Program-made: the position numbers and the translations under genes
In this document: positions 4,948 through 10,051 of the stretch, piece by piece
Layout of the letters: each line of letters begins with the position of its first letter
Numbering within the stretch: the stretch's first letter is position 1
Notes under the pieces: model-generated
Database searches by the model: none
What the model was told of the DNA's origin: nothing
The model's input: only the letters and a program-made list of their open reading frames with translations
Origin: Clostridiaceae bacterium
GTDB lineage: Bacteria > Bacillota > Clostridia > Saccharofermentanales > Fastidiosipilaceae
DNA: 13,776 nucleotides
Direction of reading: 5' to 3'
Assembly (NCBI GenBank): GCA_012514965.1
Contig: JAAYZH010000181.1
Coordinates: 1 to 13,776, forward strand

Positions 4948-7029
4948 ATGGACATACAACAAAGACGTAATGAAGAAGCCAAGAAACTCGAGCGTCAGCG
5001 CCTGGCCAGGCCGCGCATCGGCGAACGACCCTGGCTGCCCCTCGACAACGCCTCGAAAATCTTCCTCTCGACCATGACCTCCATAGACACCAAGGTCTTC
5101 AGACTCACAGCAGGCATGACCGAGCTGGTTCGCCCCGAACTCCTGCAGGAAGCCCTTGACACAGCCTATGACAGCTTCCCCCTCTACCACGGCATCATCC
5201 GGCGCGGTATCTTCTGGTACTTTGTCGAAGAATCCGACCTCCGACCAAAGGTAGAAGAAGAATCGGACATCCCCTGCGCCCAGATCTATGCAACCTCCTA
5301 TCGCGGCCTCCTCTTCCGTGTACTTTATCGGGACAATCGCATCCATCTCGAAGTCTTCCACGCCCTGTCCGACGGCAACGGTGCGATCAGTTTTTTCCAA
5401 CTCTTGCTGATCAGCTACCTGCGTCTTTGTCGTCTGGCTGATGGCAAAGTCTCCGAGGCCGTTTTGCCCTACTACATCGCCACCGACAGCAACCGCGACA
5501 GCTTTGCCGAATACTTTAAGAACAAGGTCGAAGAGGCCAAAGAAGAGGCCAAAACCGAGGCCAAAGCCGAGCCCGAGGCAATCGTCTCAGCACCGCCCGA
5601 GCCCGCCGATGTCGATCCGCCTCCTGTCAAAGTCCAGTCCAAAGCCCCGATCTACCGCATCCGCGGCGCCAAAACCCTCGACGGCCGCATGAACGTCATG
5701 GAGCTGCACCTGCGCACCTCCAAAATCCTCACAGCCGCCCGCGCCGCCGGAGGCACAGTAACCTCCTACCTGAGCGCGATCTTTATGCAAGCCATTTACG
5801 AAACAATCCCCGTCAAGAAACGGCAGCGGCACAGCTGGCAGATCGTACTCTCCGTGCCCGTCGACCTCCGCCAATTCTATCCCTCCCTGACCTCGCGCAA
5901 CTTCTTTGCCACCGTCATGCTGCGTCACGTCTTCATCCCCGGCGAGACCATCGATCTCGCAGCGCTGACAGACGAACTCTCCGACCAGCTCAAGCAAGAG
6001 GGCAGCAAAGACAAAATCTCCCGAAAAGTCGCCAAGCTCGTCAAACTCGAAAGCTCCTGGCCCCTGCGCGTCACGCCCCTCTATGCCAAAGACCTCATCC
6101 TGCGCATCGGCAACTCCATCAATAATCTCGGCATCACAGCCTCCATGACCAACGTCGGCCGTTTCCGCCTTCCGGGCGAGATCACCGACGATATGCAGGA
6201 GTGCCTGATCATGACCTCCGCTGTCCGTCCGCAGTTTTCGGTCGCCTCCTACGACAACGACCTCGCCATCACTTTTACCTCACCGAAAATGTCGACCGCC
6301 ATCCAGGACCGTTACCGCGAAATTCTCGAAGGCCTAGGCTTCGAAATCGCCTTCGCCGTCGAATCCGTCACCCCTGAAACCGAGTTCAGCATCTACAAAC
6401 AACCACACGTTTCCGGCACCAGCGGCCAGGTCACCGATGACAAGCAAGGTCGCACCAGCGCGGACTATCCACCCTACCCCCTCGTACCAGTGGAAACGAA
6501 CCTTCCTTTGGCCCAGCGCCTCCTGCTGCTCATCAGCCTCCTCGGCTTCCTGCTCTACGCGGCAGTCAATAGTCTGTGGGGCTTAGACCTGCCTTTCTCC
6601 ATCCTCGCTCTAGCCATAGGAACTCTATGGGTCATGGTCACCGGCATTCTTGGCAACCGACACAATCCCGCCTGGGCAATCCTCCTCCAGACCATGGTGA
6701 TCAGTGTTGCCCTGATCGGCGCAGACCTTCTATCCGGCTGGCGGGGCTGGTCGCTCACCTGGGCCTTGCCCATCGTCAATGTCAGCTCCTTGCTAGGCAC
6801 ACAAATCACGCTTATGGCCTCGCGCAAAGCGCTGGAGCGAGGGGTCTTCTTCCTCCAGGCTCACGCGATTCTGGCCCTGCTTCCTGTCCTGTTTATCATC
6901 CTGGGCTGGGTCGACCCATTATGGCCAAGCGTCACTGCCACAAGTCTGGCCGCCCTCTCCTTCGTGCTGACCGCGATCCTGCGGCGACGCGTCCTCGATG
7001 AGGAAGTCAGGCGAAAACTGCATCTGTAG
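4948..7029 (+). CDS. Condensation/alcohol-acyltransferase-like domain fused to a polytopic membrane domain
   Basis: The 693-residue protein has three parts. Residues 30-190 and about 235-475 look like the two halves of a condensation/wax-synthase-type acyltransferase: HALSDG (138-143) fits HxxxDG with His138 as base, and later segments such as LSVPVDLRQFYP (301-312) and GITASMTNVGRF (395-406) fit this fold. Between them lies a charged Glu/Lys/Ala/Pro linker (193-232). Residues 520-680 hold about five to six hydrophobic helices, similar in my reading to the DUF6320-type membrane domain seen beside such acyltransferases. The likely role is acyl transfer to an alcohol at the membrane. The start is one base after the esterase stop, with only a weak ribosome site, implying translational coupling. 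The donor, acceptor and product are unknown. Confidence 0.75.
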   Translation: MDIQQRRNEEAKKLERQRLARPRIGERPWLPLDNASKIFLSTMTSIDTKVFRLTAGMTELVRPELLQEALDTAYDSFPLYHGIIRRGIFWYFVEESDLRPKVEEESDIPCAQIYATSYRGLLFRVLYRDNRIHLEVFHALSDGNGAISFFQLLLISYLRLCRLADGKVSEAVLPYYIATDSNRDSFAEYFKNKVEEAKEEAKTEAKAEPEAIVSAPPEPADVDPPPVKVQSKAPIYRIRGAKTLDGRMNVMELHLRTSKILTAARAAGGTVTSYLSAIFMQAIYETIPVKKRQRHSWQIVLSVPVDLRQFYPSLTSRNFFATVMLRHVFIPGETIDLAALTDELSDQLKQEGSKDKISRKVAKLVKLESSWPLRVTPLYAKDLILRIGNSINNLGITASMTNVGRFRLPGEITDDMQECLIMTSAVRPQFSVASYDNDLAITFTSPKMSTAIQDRYREILEGLGFEIAFAVESVTPETEFSIYKQPHVSGTSGQVTDDKQGRTSADYPPYPLVPVETNLPLAQRLLLLISLLGFLLYAAVNSLWGLDLPFSILALAIGTLWVMVTGILGNRHNPAWAILLQTMVISVALIGADLLSGWRGWSLTWALPIVNVSSLLGTQITLMASRKALERGVFFLQAHAILALLPVLFIILGWVDPLWPSVTATSLAALSFVLTAILRRRVLDEEVRRKLHL

Positions 7030-7165
7030 GCGCGGCGCGGTAGGCGGTGCGGGCGGCGTAGCGGATCCGAGGGCGCCGGGCGCCGCGCGGCGCGGTAGGC
7101 GGTGCGGTAGGCGGTGCGGGCGGTGGGCGCCGGGCGCGGCGCGGCGCGGTGGCGTGTGGTGGCGT
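7030..7165. repeat. Very GC-rich direct-repeat tract
   Basis: Almost pure G/C with short words such as GCGGCGCGG and TAGGCGGTGCGG. A 21-base sequence at 7032-7052 recurs exactly at 7087-7107 (55-base offset), with a further TAGGCGGTGCGG piece just after. GGCGCCGGGCGCC-type palindromes lie between. GGATCCGAGGGC at about 7062-7073 resembles GATCCGAGGGC at 7224-7234, tying the tract to the REP-like units on its right. It starts right after the stop of the acyltransferase gene, and the strong secondary structure may end transcription, but there is no T-tract. Confidence 0.8.
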
Positions 7166-7284
7166 GTGGACAAAATTTTCGATATTCCAAGCTTCGGGCA
7201 CACACTTTCGCAATTTTTGTCCAGATCCGAGGGCTGGGTGGACAAAATTCTCGATCACCCAAGCAGCTCGGACCACACCCAGCC
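7166..7284. repeat. REP-like hairpin repeats, about 72-bp period
   Basis: GTGGACAAAATT-TCGAT--CCAAGC occurs at 7166 and again at 7238, a 72-base step. GGACAAAATT (7168-7177) can pair with AATTTTTGTCC (7212-7222), and GGCTGGGT (7232-7239) with ACCCAGCC (7277-7284). CCAAGC (7187-7192), four bases, GGCACACAC (7197-7205) matches the minus strand of the 670-864 repeats with identical spacing. The repeat therefore belongs to the same dispersed family. It lies about 270 bases before the RAYT-like gene, the arrangement known for REP sequences and their transposases. Confidence 0.7.
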
Positions 7285-7321: not shown

Positions 7322-7335
7322 AGCAGGGACAGAAC

Positions 7336-7364
7336 TTGAATTCAGTCTCGAAGCGTAGTATTCT
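7336..7364 (+). promoter_or_regulatory. Candidate sigma-A-type promoter
   Basis: TTGAAT (7336-7341), 17 bases, then TATTCT (7359-7364); each box matches four of six consensus bases. It would give a leader of roughly 185 bases that includes the 15-bp repeats before the RAYT-like start codon. The assignment rests on spacing and position only. Confidence 0.4.
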
Positions 7365-7396
7365 ATCTGCGGTGGGGACGGAACTTGAATGAGATT

Positions 7397-7456
7397 GAAT
7401 TCAATGAGATCGAATTCAATAAAGTCGAATTCAATAAAGTCGAATTCACTGAAATC
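7397..7456. repeat. Four 15-bp tandem repeats with GAATTC
   Basis: Four contiguous 15-base units (7397, 7412, 7427, 7442) of the form GAATTCAATRARRTC or near variants, preceded by a related degenerate unit beginning GAACTTGAATGAGATT at 7381. Every unit starts with the palindrome GAATTC, so sites recur about every one and a half helical turns, alternating faces. They fall in the presumed leader of the RAYT-like/reductase operon, about 100 bases before its start codon. An array of protein-binding sites or a simple slippage repeat are both possible. Confidence 0.8.
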
Positions 7457-7554: not shown

Positions 7555-8313
7555 ATGGCAAGAATATCGCGGCAACGCAATCTATATGGTCTATACCACA
7601 TCAGCCAGCAGAGTCAGGCGGATCGCGAGATTTTCCAGAACGAAGAACAGCGGACGCTCTTTCTGCAAGCGTTGCAGCAGGCACTCCAGCAATACCGTTT
7701 TCAGCTTTTGGCCTACTGCCTGATGGAGCCGGACCAGTACCACCTGATCGTGAGCCTGGAGGGTTGCGACATATCGAAACTCATGTCGAGCCTGAACATC
7801 AGTTATACCAGAGCCATCAGCAGTTCCGCCGGACTCTTCAGAGAGCGGTACAAGAGCCGCCTGCTCCGGACACCTGCTGAAGTTGAGGAAGTCTTGTCGG
7901 CTATTCGGCAGCGCTCGACGCGCGGAGACAAGTGGAACAGCTTCTGCAGCCTGGACCACTTGCAGGGTCTGACCCAGGCTCTGAACGTGCCGCAGATCAC
8001 ACCGGAGCTGGTGAAGAGCCTCTATACCGAGGATGTGCTGCAGTCGGTTTTGCCCTGTTCAAGCAGGAACGGCCCCTGCCTTACCTCGCCGGAGGCACTC
8101 AGGATCTACCTGAAGAAGCTGGCCGCTGCGGAGGGCTTGAGTCTGGAAGAAGCTTTGGCGGACAAAGACCTGCGCAACAGCTGGATCTGCCAGGCCAGAC
8201 GCGAATCTACACTTAGTCTTCGCCAGATCGGCGAGGTGTTCGGCGGTTTGTCCGAATCTATGGTGAGTAAAGTAATTAAACAACACACGCAGCAAGGAGT
8301 AACGCATGCTTGA
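7555..8313 (+). CDS. RAYT/Y1-transposase-like protein with a degenerate HUH motif
   Basis: The 252-residue protein resembles REP-associated tyrosine transposases (Y1_Tnp): YGLYHISQQSQADREIFQ at the N-terminus, AYCLMEPDQYHLIV where active members have LMPNHxHLLV, SLNISYTRAI with Tyr84 as candidate catalytic tyrosine, GLFRERYKSRLL, and a WNSF block replacing WSSY. The first HUH histidine is Gln61 (Q-Y-H63), so normal metal binding and nicking are doubtful. The C-terminus (about 218-245, SLRQIGEVFGG...SMVSKVIKQH) reads as a helix-turn-helix. AAAGGAG seven bases before ATG supports the start. Its end overlaps the reductase start by 8 bases, an unusual place for a transposase, and REP-like repeats lie upstream. 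A domesticated DNA-binding regulator is a reasonable alternative. Confidence 0.75.
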   Translation: MARISRQRNLYGLYHISQQSQADREIFQNEEQRTLFLQALQQALQQYRFQLLAYCLMEPDQYHLIVSLEGCDISKLMSSLNISYTRAISSSAGLFRERYKSRLLRTPAEVEEVLSAIRQRSTRGDKWNSFCSLDHLQGLTQALNVPQITPELVKSLYTEDVLQSVLPCSSRNGPCLTSPEALRIYLKKLAAAEGLSLEEALADKDLRNSWICQARRESTLSLRQIGEVFGGLSESMVSKVIKQHTQQGVTHA

Positions 8314-9343
8314 TTTATCACTCAATTTGAATCTGGACGGAGCGGCCAAAGCCAAGCCGGACAGCCCGGCACCGGCCCGCACCGAGCCTCGCGCAGACAC
8401 TCTCTACGATATCCTCGTACTGGGCGGAGGACCGGCAGGTCTCAACGCAGCTCTGTATGCCAGCCGCAAAGGCTTGAAAGTCGCTGTTTTTGGCGAGCGG
8501 ATTGGCGGCCTGTTGCTGGATACTTCCTCCGTAGATAATTATATCGGCGGCGGTGATACCAGCGGGTATGATTTGGCCATGAACTTTGAGCGCGATGTGC
8601 GTGCACTGGGCGTGCCGATCCTGGAAGGTTACCGTATCGAGGGCTGGCATCGCGAAGGGGAAAACCTGATTCTCGAAGCTACGAACGGCGAGCATTATCA
8701 CGGCCGCACGGTCATTCTGGCAACTGGTTCTATGCCACGTCACCTGGGTGTGCCGGGTGAAGACGAACTCTCGGGTCGCGGCGTCAGCTATTGCGCCATT
8801 TGTGACGGGCCGCTCTACCGCGGCAAGCGCGTGGTCATCTCCGGCGGCGGCAACTCCGCGGTCCAGGCCGCGATTGATTTGTCCCGCCTGGTGTCGGAAG
8901 TAACCGTGGTGCAACGGAGTGTCTTCCGTGCTGACCAGGTTCTGATGGATGAAGTGAGCAAGCTGGCTAACGTCACCCTATTCACGCAGACCGATATTCT
9001 CCGCATTCGCGGTGAGCAGAAGGTCGAGGGCGTGGATGTACGCGACAAGGCTACTGGCGAAGAGCGTTTTATATCCGCGGATGGTGTCTTCATTGAGATT
9101 GGACATATTCCGCAGCTCGGACCATTTGTCGGTGCTTTGGCCGTCAATGACAGCAATGAAGTTATAGTCGACGCCCACAACCACACAAGTGAACCCGGTG
9201 TCTTCGCCGCCGGCGATGTGACACCCACTGAATACAAACAGATCGTAATTGCCGCAGCCGAAGGCGCAAAAGCTGCCCTTTCTGTGAACAATTACCTTAC
9301 CACCAAGCCAGCTGCTATACCGGCCACACCGGTTAGTATATAA
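8306..9343 (+). CDS. AhpF/thioredoxin-reductase-like flavoprotein
   Basis: The 345-residue protein is a class II pyridine-nucleotide disulfide oxidoreductase. A poorly conserved 33-residue leader comes first, then the FAD site LGGGPAG (39-45), the redox pair C163-A-I-C166, the nucleotide-binding GGGNSA (180-185) and the C-terminal FAD motif AAGDVTPTEYKQI (301-313). The last third (GDV-YKQIVIAAAEGAKAALS) is closer to AhpF than to ordinary TrxB. The NADPH phosphate motif HRRxxFR of TrxB is VQRSVFR (202-208), so NADH or another donor is likely. AAGGAG lies before the ATG, inside the end of the RAYT-like gene. The double-thioredoxin-fold protein downstream is the probable electron acceptor. No peroxiredoxin gene is present in the window. 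Confidence 0.88.
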   Translation: MLDLSLNLNLDGAAKAKPDSPAPARTEPRADTLYDILVLGGGPAGLNAALYASRKGLKVAVFGERIGGLLLDTSSVDNYIGGGDTSGYDLAMNFERDVRALGVPILEGYRIEGWHREGENLILEATNGEHYHGRTVILATGSMPRHLGVPGEDELSGRGVSYCAICDGPLYRGKRVVISGGGNSAVQAAIDLSRLVSEVTVVQRSVFRADQVLMDEVSKLANVTLFTQTDILRIRGEQKVEGVDVRDKATGEERFISADGVFIEIGHIPQLGPFVGALAVNDSNEVIVDAHNHTSEPGVFAAGDVTPTEYKQIVIAAAEGAKAALSVNNYLTTKPAAIPATPVSI

Positions 9344-9406: not shown

Positions 9407-10051
9407 ATGACTTACTTAAACGACGAAACCATCGAACAGCTCAAGGAATACTTCAAGGATCTGGACAAAGACGTCCATGTCATCTACTTTAACGCCGAAG
9501 GCGCACAGACCGGTGAAGAAACCGCGACGATCCTCCGTGAAATCACTTCCATCCACGACAAGCTGCATCTGGAAGAGAAAGACCTGGAAGCCGACAAAGA
9601 TCTGGCTGCCGAATATGGCGTCGAGATGTCCCCCTCCTATGTCTTGCTTGATCAGAATCGCAACTTTACCCGCGTCCGTTTCAACGGCATTCCGCTTGGT
9701 CACGAGATTAATTCCTTCCTGAGCGCCTTGGTCGAAGTCGGCGGCAACCCGCCTGCTATGCCTGAAGAGATGAAGGCTCGTATTGCCAAAATCGACAAGC
9801 CTGTCAACATCAAGGTTTTCGTGACCCTGGGCTGCCCGCACTGCCCCGGCGCTGTGCAGAAGGCACATGCTCTGGCCCTCGCAAACCCCAATATCCAGGC
9901 TGAAATGGTAGAGGCTCAGACCTTCTCAGAGCTTTCGGAGAAGTTCAACGTGAGTTCGGTTCCGCAGATCGTGTTCAACGACAGCGAGAGCTTCCTGGGC
10001 AACCTGCCTTTCGAAGAGTTCATCAAGACGGCTGAGCTGGTTACGCAATAA
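9407..10051 (+). CDS. AhpF N-terminal-like double thioredoxin-fold protein
   Basis: The 214-residue protein has two thioredoxin folds. The first (about 1-115) lacks cysteines but keeps a cis-Pro-type MSPSYVLL. The second (about 130-214) has LGCPHCPGAV with C143-P-H-C146, and VSSVPQIVFN with the cis-proline Pro186. One silent and one active fold is the layout of the AhpF N-terminal domain; archaeal-type protein disulfide oxidoreductase is the alternative. It should take electrons from the reductase encoded 63 bases upstream and pass them to a peroxiredoxin or other disulfide. AAAGGAA six bases before ATG supports the start, and a strong terminator follows. It is cytoplasmic, with no signal peptide. 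Confidence 0.87.
   Translation: MTYLNDETIEQLKEYFKDLDKDVHVIYFNAEGAQTGEETATILREITSIHDKLHLEEKDLEADKDLAAEYGVEMSPSYVLLDQNRNFTRVRFNGIPLGHEINSFLSALVEVGGNPPAMPEEMKARIAKIDKPVNIKVFVTLGCPHCPGAVQKAHALALANPNIQAEMVEAQTFSELSEKFNVSSVPQIVFNDSESFLGNLPFEEFIKTAELVTQ

Follow-up and report, generated by a model that had tools for sequence, protein, structure and literature searches.

Genes of the locus and the fold of the first protein

The window, as the whole stretch of DNA analysed here is called, comprises 13,776 nucleotides and is an entire contig (C141) of a draft genome of 1.84 Mb in 371 contigs, 82% complete. Three forward-strand genes make up the locus: 7555..8313 encodes a 252-residue protein that appears to be a domesticated derivative of TIRYT/RAYT transposases, with HUH and Tyr motifs both lost; 8306..9343 a 345-residue flavoprotein resembling thioredoxin reductase and the C-terminal half of AhpF (trxR); and 9407..10051 a protein disulfide oxidoreductase (PDO, gene pdo) resembling the N-terminal half of AhpF. 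Against NCBIfam models the reductase frame scores 330.5 bits (TIGR03140) and 292.9 bits (TIGR01292), both below their cut-offs, and the PDO frame 225.5 bits (TIGR02187), above the cut-off of 185; the two thus match the two halves of AhpF, and such a pair, a split AhpF or thioredoxin reductase with PDO, consists of known enzymes.

The 8-nt overlap between the first gene and the reductase described in an earlier note on this DNA was verified, both frames being present, as was a ribosome site for the reductase inside the first gene (AGGAG at 8295-8299, 6 nt ahead of the reductase ATG). The coupling of the two genes by overlap, which the same note emphasised, holds in the window and not beyond it: over 44 related loci, where not every start codon is certain, the intergenic distance varies between about -47 and about 149 nt, ruling out translational coupling as a general trait and leaving the 8-nt overlap as a trait of this lineage.

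Residues 1-138 of the 252-residue protein (7555..7968) form a Y1-transposase-like core; the Y1_Tnp (TnpA) core fold is present, and by sequence as by fold the protein matches TnpA-type proteins best, with 28.8 bits for Pfam Y1_Tnp (cut-off 23) and 39.5 bits for NCBIfam REP_Tyr_transpos (NF047646), below its equivalog cut-off of 80, and a PDB sequence search with the single protein gave no match. The HUH site at residues 61-63 (7735-7743) is broken as had been reported, reading Y54-C-L-M-E-P-D-Q61-Y62-H63-L. A linker (7945..8088), partly of low confidence in the predicted structure (pLDDT below 50 at residues 132-146 and 165-171), carries C131, C168 and C175, a candidate thiol switch. The helix-turn-helix-like tail also recognised previously occupies residues 172-252 (8068..8310), includes FGGLSES, is among the best conserved parts of the alignment of relatives, and is predicted to be a double-stranded-DNA-binding domain, which we take to resemble DnaA domain IV.

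A conserved clade without the catalytic motifs

Relatives were gathered by a protein search, which gave 23 matches (P0001, a near-copy of the window protein; P0002-P0021, of common architecture and without HxH at its site; P0022-P0023, intact), and by scans of genome contigs, where the single protein yielded 184 pattern matches and no relative, and an alignment-based scan yielded 52 loci. As these loci were found via two conserved peptides, members lacking those peptides would have been missed. The 52 comprise 43 with a broken HUH site, eight intact and one C-terminal fragment left unclassed (L054), giving 44 broken loci with the window. In a tree of 109 rows, built by a quick method with no bootstrap after removal of near-duplicates and short frames, 59 broken rows lie on one side of a single branch (SH-aLRT 100); L050, L065 and L067 were counted as intact because their sequences hold N-H-x-H and the Y...NP motif, which trimming had hidden from the regular expression.

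Catalytic motifs were counted in an alignment of 64 clade rows, some of them near-duplicates, and nine intact rows. Q61 aligns with the first His and H63 with the second His of N-H-x-H, one extra residue preceding H63. HxH at its site is found in 0/64 clade rows versus 9/9 intact rows, the HFH of L003 lying a few residues beyond the HUH site; the first His is kept in two clade rows (L030 and L045, with Asp at the second position) and the second in 38/64. Gln at position 61 occurs in 11/64 rows, ruling it out as a diagnostic residue, the conserved trait being the missing HxH (64/64). The suggestion that Gln61 and the reductase linkage are conserved together therefore stands in altered form: Gln61 itself is not conserved, and HUH loss and linkage coincide in 44/44 loci. 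The catalytic-Tyr motif Y[IVMFL]..NP is matched as a strict pattern by no clade row (0/64), looser patterns matching five (Y..N[PS]) and three (Y...N), and all nine intact rows keep Y[IVMFL]..N. In E. coli TnpA-REP, Y115 and N119 lie in a Y---NP motif (PMC8266576, PMC6006769); its placement also follows from an alignment of L041 with 4er8, which is weak. Clade proteins are 210-258 residues long, versus 272-333 in the intact rows.

The 44 clade proteins share a median identity of 42% (minimum 27%), invariant positions are present in their alignment, and the purifying selection that had been anticipated is seen in relatives of the window gene. Among 15 close pairs, all of clade relatives and none including the window's own gene, dN/dS was finite in 12 by NG86 (0.041-0.202, some pairs being saturated) and in ten by YN00 (0.064-0.224).

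Genomic context is constant as well. Directly downstream on the same strand lies trxR in 44/44 broken-HUH loci, and pdo is also linked in 42/44, the exceptions being L020, where the contig ends, and L040, where pdo is unlinked; the scan used the sequence of the first protein (hereafter the regulator), so that the locus set is not biased towards particular neighbours. Neither trxR nor pdo was found in the flanks examined of the eight closest intact loci (L039, L041, L046-L048, L050-L052). A population of homologues with mostly intact HxH, scattered contexts and relaxed selection, which would have spoken against domestication, was looked for and not observed.

The distribution of the regulator gene is patchy: within the window's family 0/11 further genomes have it, and within the order 5/188 do, the window's included. 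Stand-alone PDO above the cut-off occurs in eight of 391 genomes of the class, again including the window's, and only three of these eight hold the regulator, at most seven candidates per genome having been scored in the regulator scan; the redox pair thus does not need the regulator. Pairs of trxR and pdo with neither regulator nor motif in the stretches examined were seen at L174, L175, L116-L118 (genus code g147) and L173 (G181), and can serve as controls provided by nature.

An operator-like motif and its probable origin in a transposon end

A search of up to 250 nt upstream of the 44 genes revealed the motif GGGACGGTACTTGA, exact in 37, with one mismatch in three and with two in two (42/44 at two or fewer), the outliers being L038, with a weak motif at four mismatches, and L030, with no match in 96 nt. 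For proteins with a median identity of 42% and a minimum of 27%, a 14-bp non-coding match represents strong conservation. Its last four bases, TTGA, open a -35 hexamer, mostly followed after 16-17 nt by a -10-like hexamer; because each -10 box was picked as the best match over five spacings (15-19 nt), these boxes are putative.

On the forward strand of the window, a putative operator 1, GGGACAGAACTTGAAT, lies at 7326..7341, recognised as a repeat, by motif scan and by a compound pattern; a putative -35 box TTGAAT at 7336-7341 stands 17 nt before TATTCT at 7359..7364, the putative -10 box of the operon promoter (best of five spacings); and a putative operator 2, GGGGACGGAACTTGAAT, at 7374..7390, 49 nt past operator 1, is near the expected transcription start. 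The motif copies themselves, GGGACAGAACTTGA at 7326 and GGGACGGAACTTGA at 7375, carry one and two mismatches, and a long leader follows. Two direct copies also occur in the close relatives L003 (46 nt apart) and L177 of G018 (40 nt), where the second copy is likewise near the expected start site. The operon promoter thus carries a conserved operator, as judged from sequence.

The repeats between 7166 and 7456 had been suggested as a possible binding target of the protein. This holds for one family, GGGAC(A/G)GAACTTGAAT (7326 and 7375), which recurs in relatives' upstream regions; the other families were not found there. By eye, neither the GTGGACAAAATT repeats at 7166 and 7238 nor the GAATTC 15-mers were seen in the upstream regions of relatives (250 nt for the latter), and both were set aside as targets, so that the GAATTCAATRARRTC-like units of the leader, about four tandem direct copies of 15 nt that lie downstream of operator 2 and ahead of the regulator gene (7391..7456, forward strand), are probably not a target.

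Further repeats were observed in the window. G+C-rich repeats (GGCGGTGCGGTAGGCGG) at 7029-7164, not seen in relatives' upstream regions, directly follow an acyltransferase-like gene and precede the two GTGGACAAAATT units, which lie within 7166-7264; tandem GGAGAAGCC/GGAGAAGGC repeats lie near the contig start at 172-341; and intergenic units of the form GATTTTTGTCATTTCGGAC...GGTGACAAAAAGTCTTCTAATC occur in several copies at 1021-1515, with similar-looking repeats at about 690-860.

The motif GGGACGGTACTTGA is nearly identical to GGGACGGTTCTTGA, the terminal inverted repeat of intact multi-copy relatives, copies of which flank seven intact genes on at least one side: at -57 in L039, with an inverted copy at two mismatches 4 nt past the gene; at -173 in L046, with an inverted copy at the gene end; and on one or both sides of L041, L047, L048, L050 and L051. 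In the more distant intact element L052, the gene is flanked on either side by an end of another kind, GGGGACGGTTCATAA with a hairpin (5781 and downstream). With at most one mismatch, GGGACGGTTCTTGA was counted three times in the genome of L039, 14 in L041, 13 in L046, 47 in L047, 43 in L048, 14 in L050 and 55 in L051 (eight genome handles, two being the same genome), against 0-2 for a reversed control; among the matches listed, the sites often form close inverted pairs. G601, G602 and G604, the genomes of L047, L048 and L051, hold these 43-55 copies beside intact TIRYT relatives. Copies of the repeat number two in the window genome, both at this operon, and 0-4 in clade genomes, compared with 3-55 in the seven genomes of intact relatives.

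TIRYT ends carry a GGGGWSAS motif (PMC3733652, section 16), with which GGGGACGG agrees at 7/8 positions. The same source gives CGTC as the tag of repeats without a dedicated transposase, and the complement of GGGACGGTTCTTGA-like sites contains CGTC, making a link to such transposase-less repeats possible.

Between regulator and trxR, an inverted copy of the motif with at most two mismatches persists in 22/44 clade loci, which rules out that the right end was lost throughout the clade; the background, with three mismatches allowed and both strands scanned, was 22 matches over 417 kb. An alternative count of 20 (up to three mismatches, ahead of the chosen trxR start) is lower owing to poorly chosen start codons. 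In the window, copies are found upstream of the regulator only.

The motif and the gene largely travel together. The compound pattern GGGACRNWACTTGAN{17,20}TANNNT was found in 45/50 clade genomes, some handles being the same genome, with no match for the reversed pattern and with G165, G166, G584, G611 and G591 as the genomes without it. Among the 391 class genomes it matched in four, namely the three gene holders (G000, G254, G512) and G258, the only one of 388 genomes lacking the gene to match, in a scan that also gave two control matches. At the trxR-pdo loci of five genomes without the regulator, trxR was seen and no operator within two mismatches was found in the stretches examined.

In a few genomes the pattern also precedes other genes. 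In G592, the genome of L040, it stands ahead of two genes, the unlinked pdo (L162) and one encoding a DUF302 protein (L163, 1615-2098). G593 and G594 each carry it ahead of an SBF-type transporter gene, the two being alike (L210, 1175-2185, Pfam SBF 113.7 bits, and L176), and G594 has further sites upstream of genes for a 4Fe-4S ferredoxin (L167) and for a rhodanese-domain disulfide reductase (L208, 642-2776). The DUF302, SBF-type transporter and disulfide reductase-rhodanese sites of these three genomes hint at a thiol or metal stress regulon. Both compound-pattern sites of G582 lie ahead of its own regulator gene.

Taken alone, the 14-mer is not specific: with one mismatch allowed it gave 66 matches in 42 clade genomes (0-4 each) versus 30 for the reversed control, and among the matches listed the exact sites are at this operon save two in G592. 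In the window genome GGGACRGWACTTGA has two exact matches, the 7326 and 7375 sites, and allowing one mismatch adds none; as the control also gives two, no wider regulon is seen there. Given these control counts (66 versus 30; 2 versus 2), single one-mismatch sites off the operon mean little: among those examined, the sites at L165, L169, L170 and L172 look like chance, and that before a rubredoxin (L171/L209) is no better than control level.

From transposase to candidate redox regulator

The protein is best described, on this comparative evidence, as a descendant of the active RAYT/TIRYT family and no longer a member of it, because HUH motif, Tyr motif and dispersed repeats are all missing. 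It had been proposed to be a domesticated, non-nicking DNA-binding protein, and the loss of HUH in 64/64 rows, the fixed linkage, the low dN/dS of relatives and the operator-like motif all argue for this. More specifically, it is very probably a nuclease-dead TIRYT that became the autoregulator, most likely the repressor, of a thiol-redox operon, with the former transposon end as its operator.

The ancestor would have been a TIRYT, a RAYT-like Y1 tyrosine transposase gene flanked by terminal inverted repeats. The left end of this element, GGGACGGTTCTTGA, may already have overlapped the -35 box that served transposase expression, so that the transposase bound its own promoter-containing end. 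Such an element presumably came to precede a pair of trxR and pdo genes; after the loss of catalysis its end, now GGGACGGTACTTGA, remained as operator. Strand cutting would have gone, and the fold of the Y1 core and a helix-turn-helix like that of DnaA domain IV would have been kept. The present protein most likely binds the operator as double-stranded DNA, covers the -35 box and shuts the promoter, thereby controlling itself and the thiol-redox genes of its operon. In a few lineages additional genes at other genomic positions, most of them related to redox, would also be under the operator. Binding of the motif by the protein, repression over activation and cysteine sensing are all inferred from sequence.

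Class II activators use a position overlapping the -35 box, and the motif ends inside that box, so the same protein and operator could instead recruit RNA polymerase beside it, an arrangement that we regard as unlikely. In many of the promoters both the -35 and the -10 box are close to consensus, and such boxes need no activator; a second operator lies near the start site in the window and two close relatives; and repression is the usual outcome when a transposase covers the promoter in its own end. With the -35 box covered, promoters near consensus and a second operator present, repression is favoured over activation by a clear, though not overwhelming, margin.

That the motif might serve another, unlinked redox regulator, the dead transposase acting elsewhere, for example on RNA or single-stranded DNA, is improbable. 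The identity of the motif-binding protein is deduced from sequence, and a Y1 core could still hold single-stranded hairpins; against this, the motif nearly equals the ancestral element end, motif and promoter are present in all three gene-holding genomes of the class and in only 1/388 others, a search of the trxR-pdo loci in five genomes without the gene gave no motif within two mismatches in the stretches examined, and the helix-turn-helix is among the best conserved parts of the protein. Slimmer still are the chances that the locus is an element end with a passenger, its inverted repeats mobilised in trans by intact transposases and the trxR-pdo linkage mere hitchhiking: both ends do persist in about half of the loci, and intact-looking Y1 transposases exist in other genomes of the class, but the context is identical in 44/44 loci across deep divergence, a clade genome has 0-4 exact or near-exact copies, against 3-55 in the seven genomes of intact relatives, and dN/dS is low. 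An ordinary pseudogene or annotation artefact, a decaying transposase overlapping the reductase by chance, would fit the lost HUH site of the window copy and is ruled out by selection and conservation in the clade, with open frames of 210-258 residues in 64 rows, dN/dS of 0.04-0.2 in relatives and invariant alignment positions.

If the autoregulator reading is right, the linker cysteines may provide its signal. In the stretch matching window residues 106-178, at least two Cys occur in 62/64 clade rows, Cx2-8C in 54/64 and CxxC in 40/64, compared with 2/9, 1/9 and 0/9 of the intact rows. Redox sensing by these acquired cysteines is plausible on the pattern of their occurrence, and zinc binding is equally possible; a thiol switch is suggested by their acquisition together with the redox nature of most target genes, and would sense the thiol state and be reset by the operon's own products. 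The full scheme, in which a Y1 (HUH) transposase became a redox-sensing repressor with the former transposon end as operator, gained a linker dithiol switch in the lineage that lost catalysis, is reset in a feedback loop by the reductase and PDO under its control, and in some lineages commands a small thiol/metal regulon, is put forward tentatively, at somewhat less than even chances.

TIRYTs, or subclass 2.1 TnpA-Y1 proteins, are RAYT-like, have terminal inverted repeats and carry a DnaA_C- or HTH-like C-terminal domain (PMC3733652, PMC6006769); the window clade resembles them in its Y1 core fold, C-terminal helix-turn-helix and GGGGWSAS-like ends. It differs in having neither HUH nor catalytic Tyr motif, in being shorter (210-258 residues versus 272-304 in the intact locus rows), in lacking dispersed repeats and in its fixed position before trxR-pdo. 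All TIRYTs aligned in PMC3733652 are stated there to keep HUH and Tyr, and the tree of PMC6006769 was restricted to proteins in which the core is complete and the two motifs are present. E. coli TnpA-REP (4er8), proposed to be domesticated yet catalytically intact, is, unlike the window clade, an active single-strand nuclease on REP hairpins (PMC8266576). Within the literature searched (one open library), no description was found of a nuclease-dead Y1-derived regulator, nor of a Y1-derived regulator of a trxR and PDO pair; the terms RAYT, REP-associated and TnpA are absent from the text of PMC8987985.

Across many anaerobic bacteria, a dead-transposase gene stands before the same thiol-repair genes and, from its sequence, looks like a gene switch. 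To our knowledge, the nearest parallel among transposon proteins turned regulators is TldR. Like the window clade, TldR stems from a nuclease of the IS200/IS605 world that lost cutting and gained fixed neighbours, and it acts as a transcription factor (PMC13418256); it is TnpB-derived and RNA-guided, whereas the window clade is Y1-transposase-derived and its target is apparently its own former end, read by the helix-turn-helix. TldR thus indicates that one half of that world, TnpB, can yield transcription factors, and the present clade, if the proposal is true, would supply the matching case on the Y1 transposase side, with no RNA guide and with the transposon end itself becoming the operator. 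Living genomes span the range from an active-looking element, with many repeats, both ends and intact catalysis, to a fixed regulator that has few copies, retains one end or both, is catalytically dead and is followed by host genes, so that each step of domestication is open to a separate test. For a group of Clostridia, it would also mean that a protein now taken for a transposase is a regulator of thiol redox.
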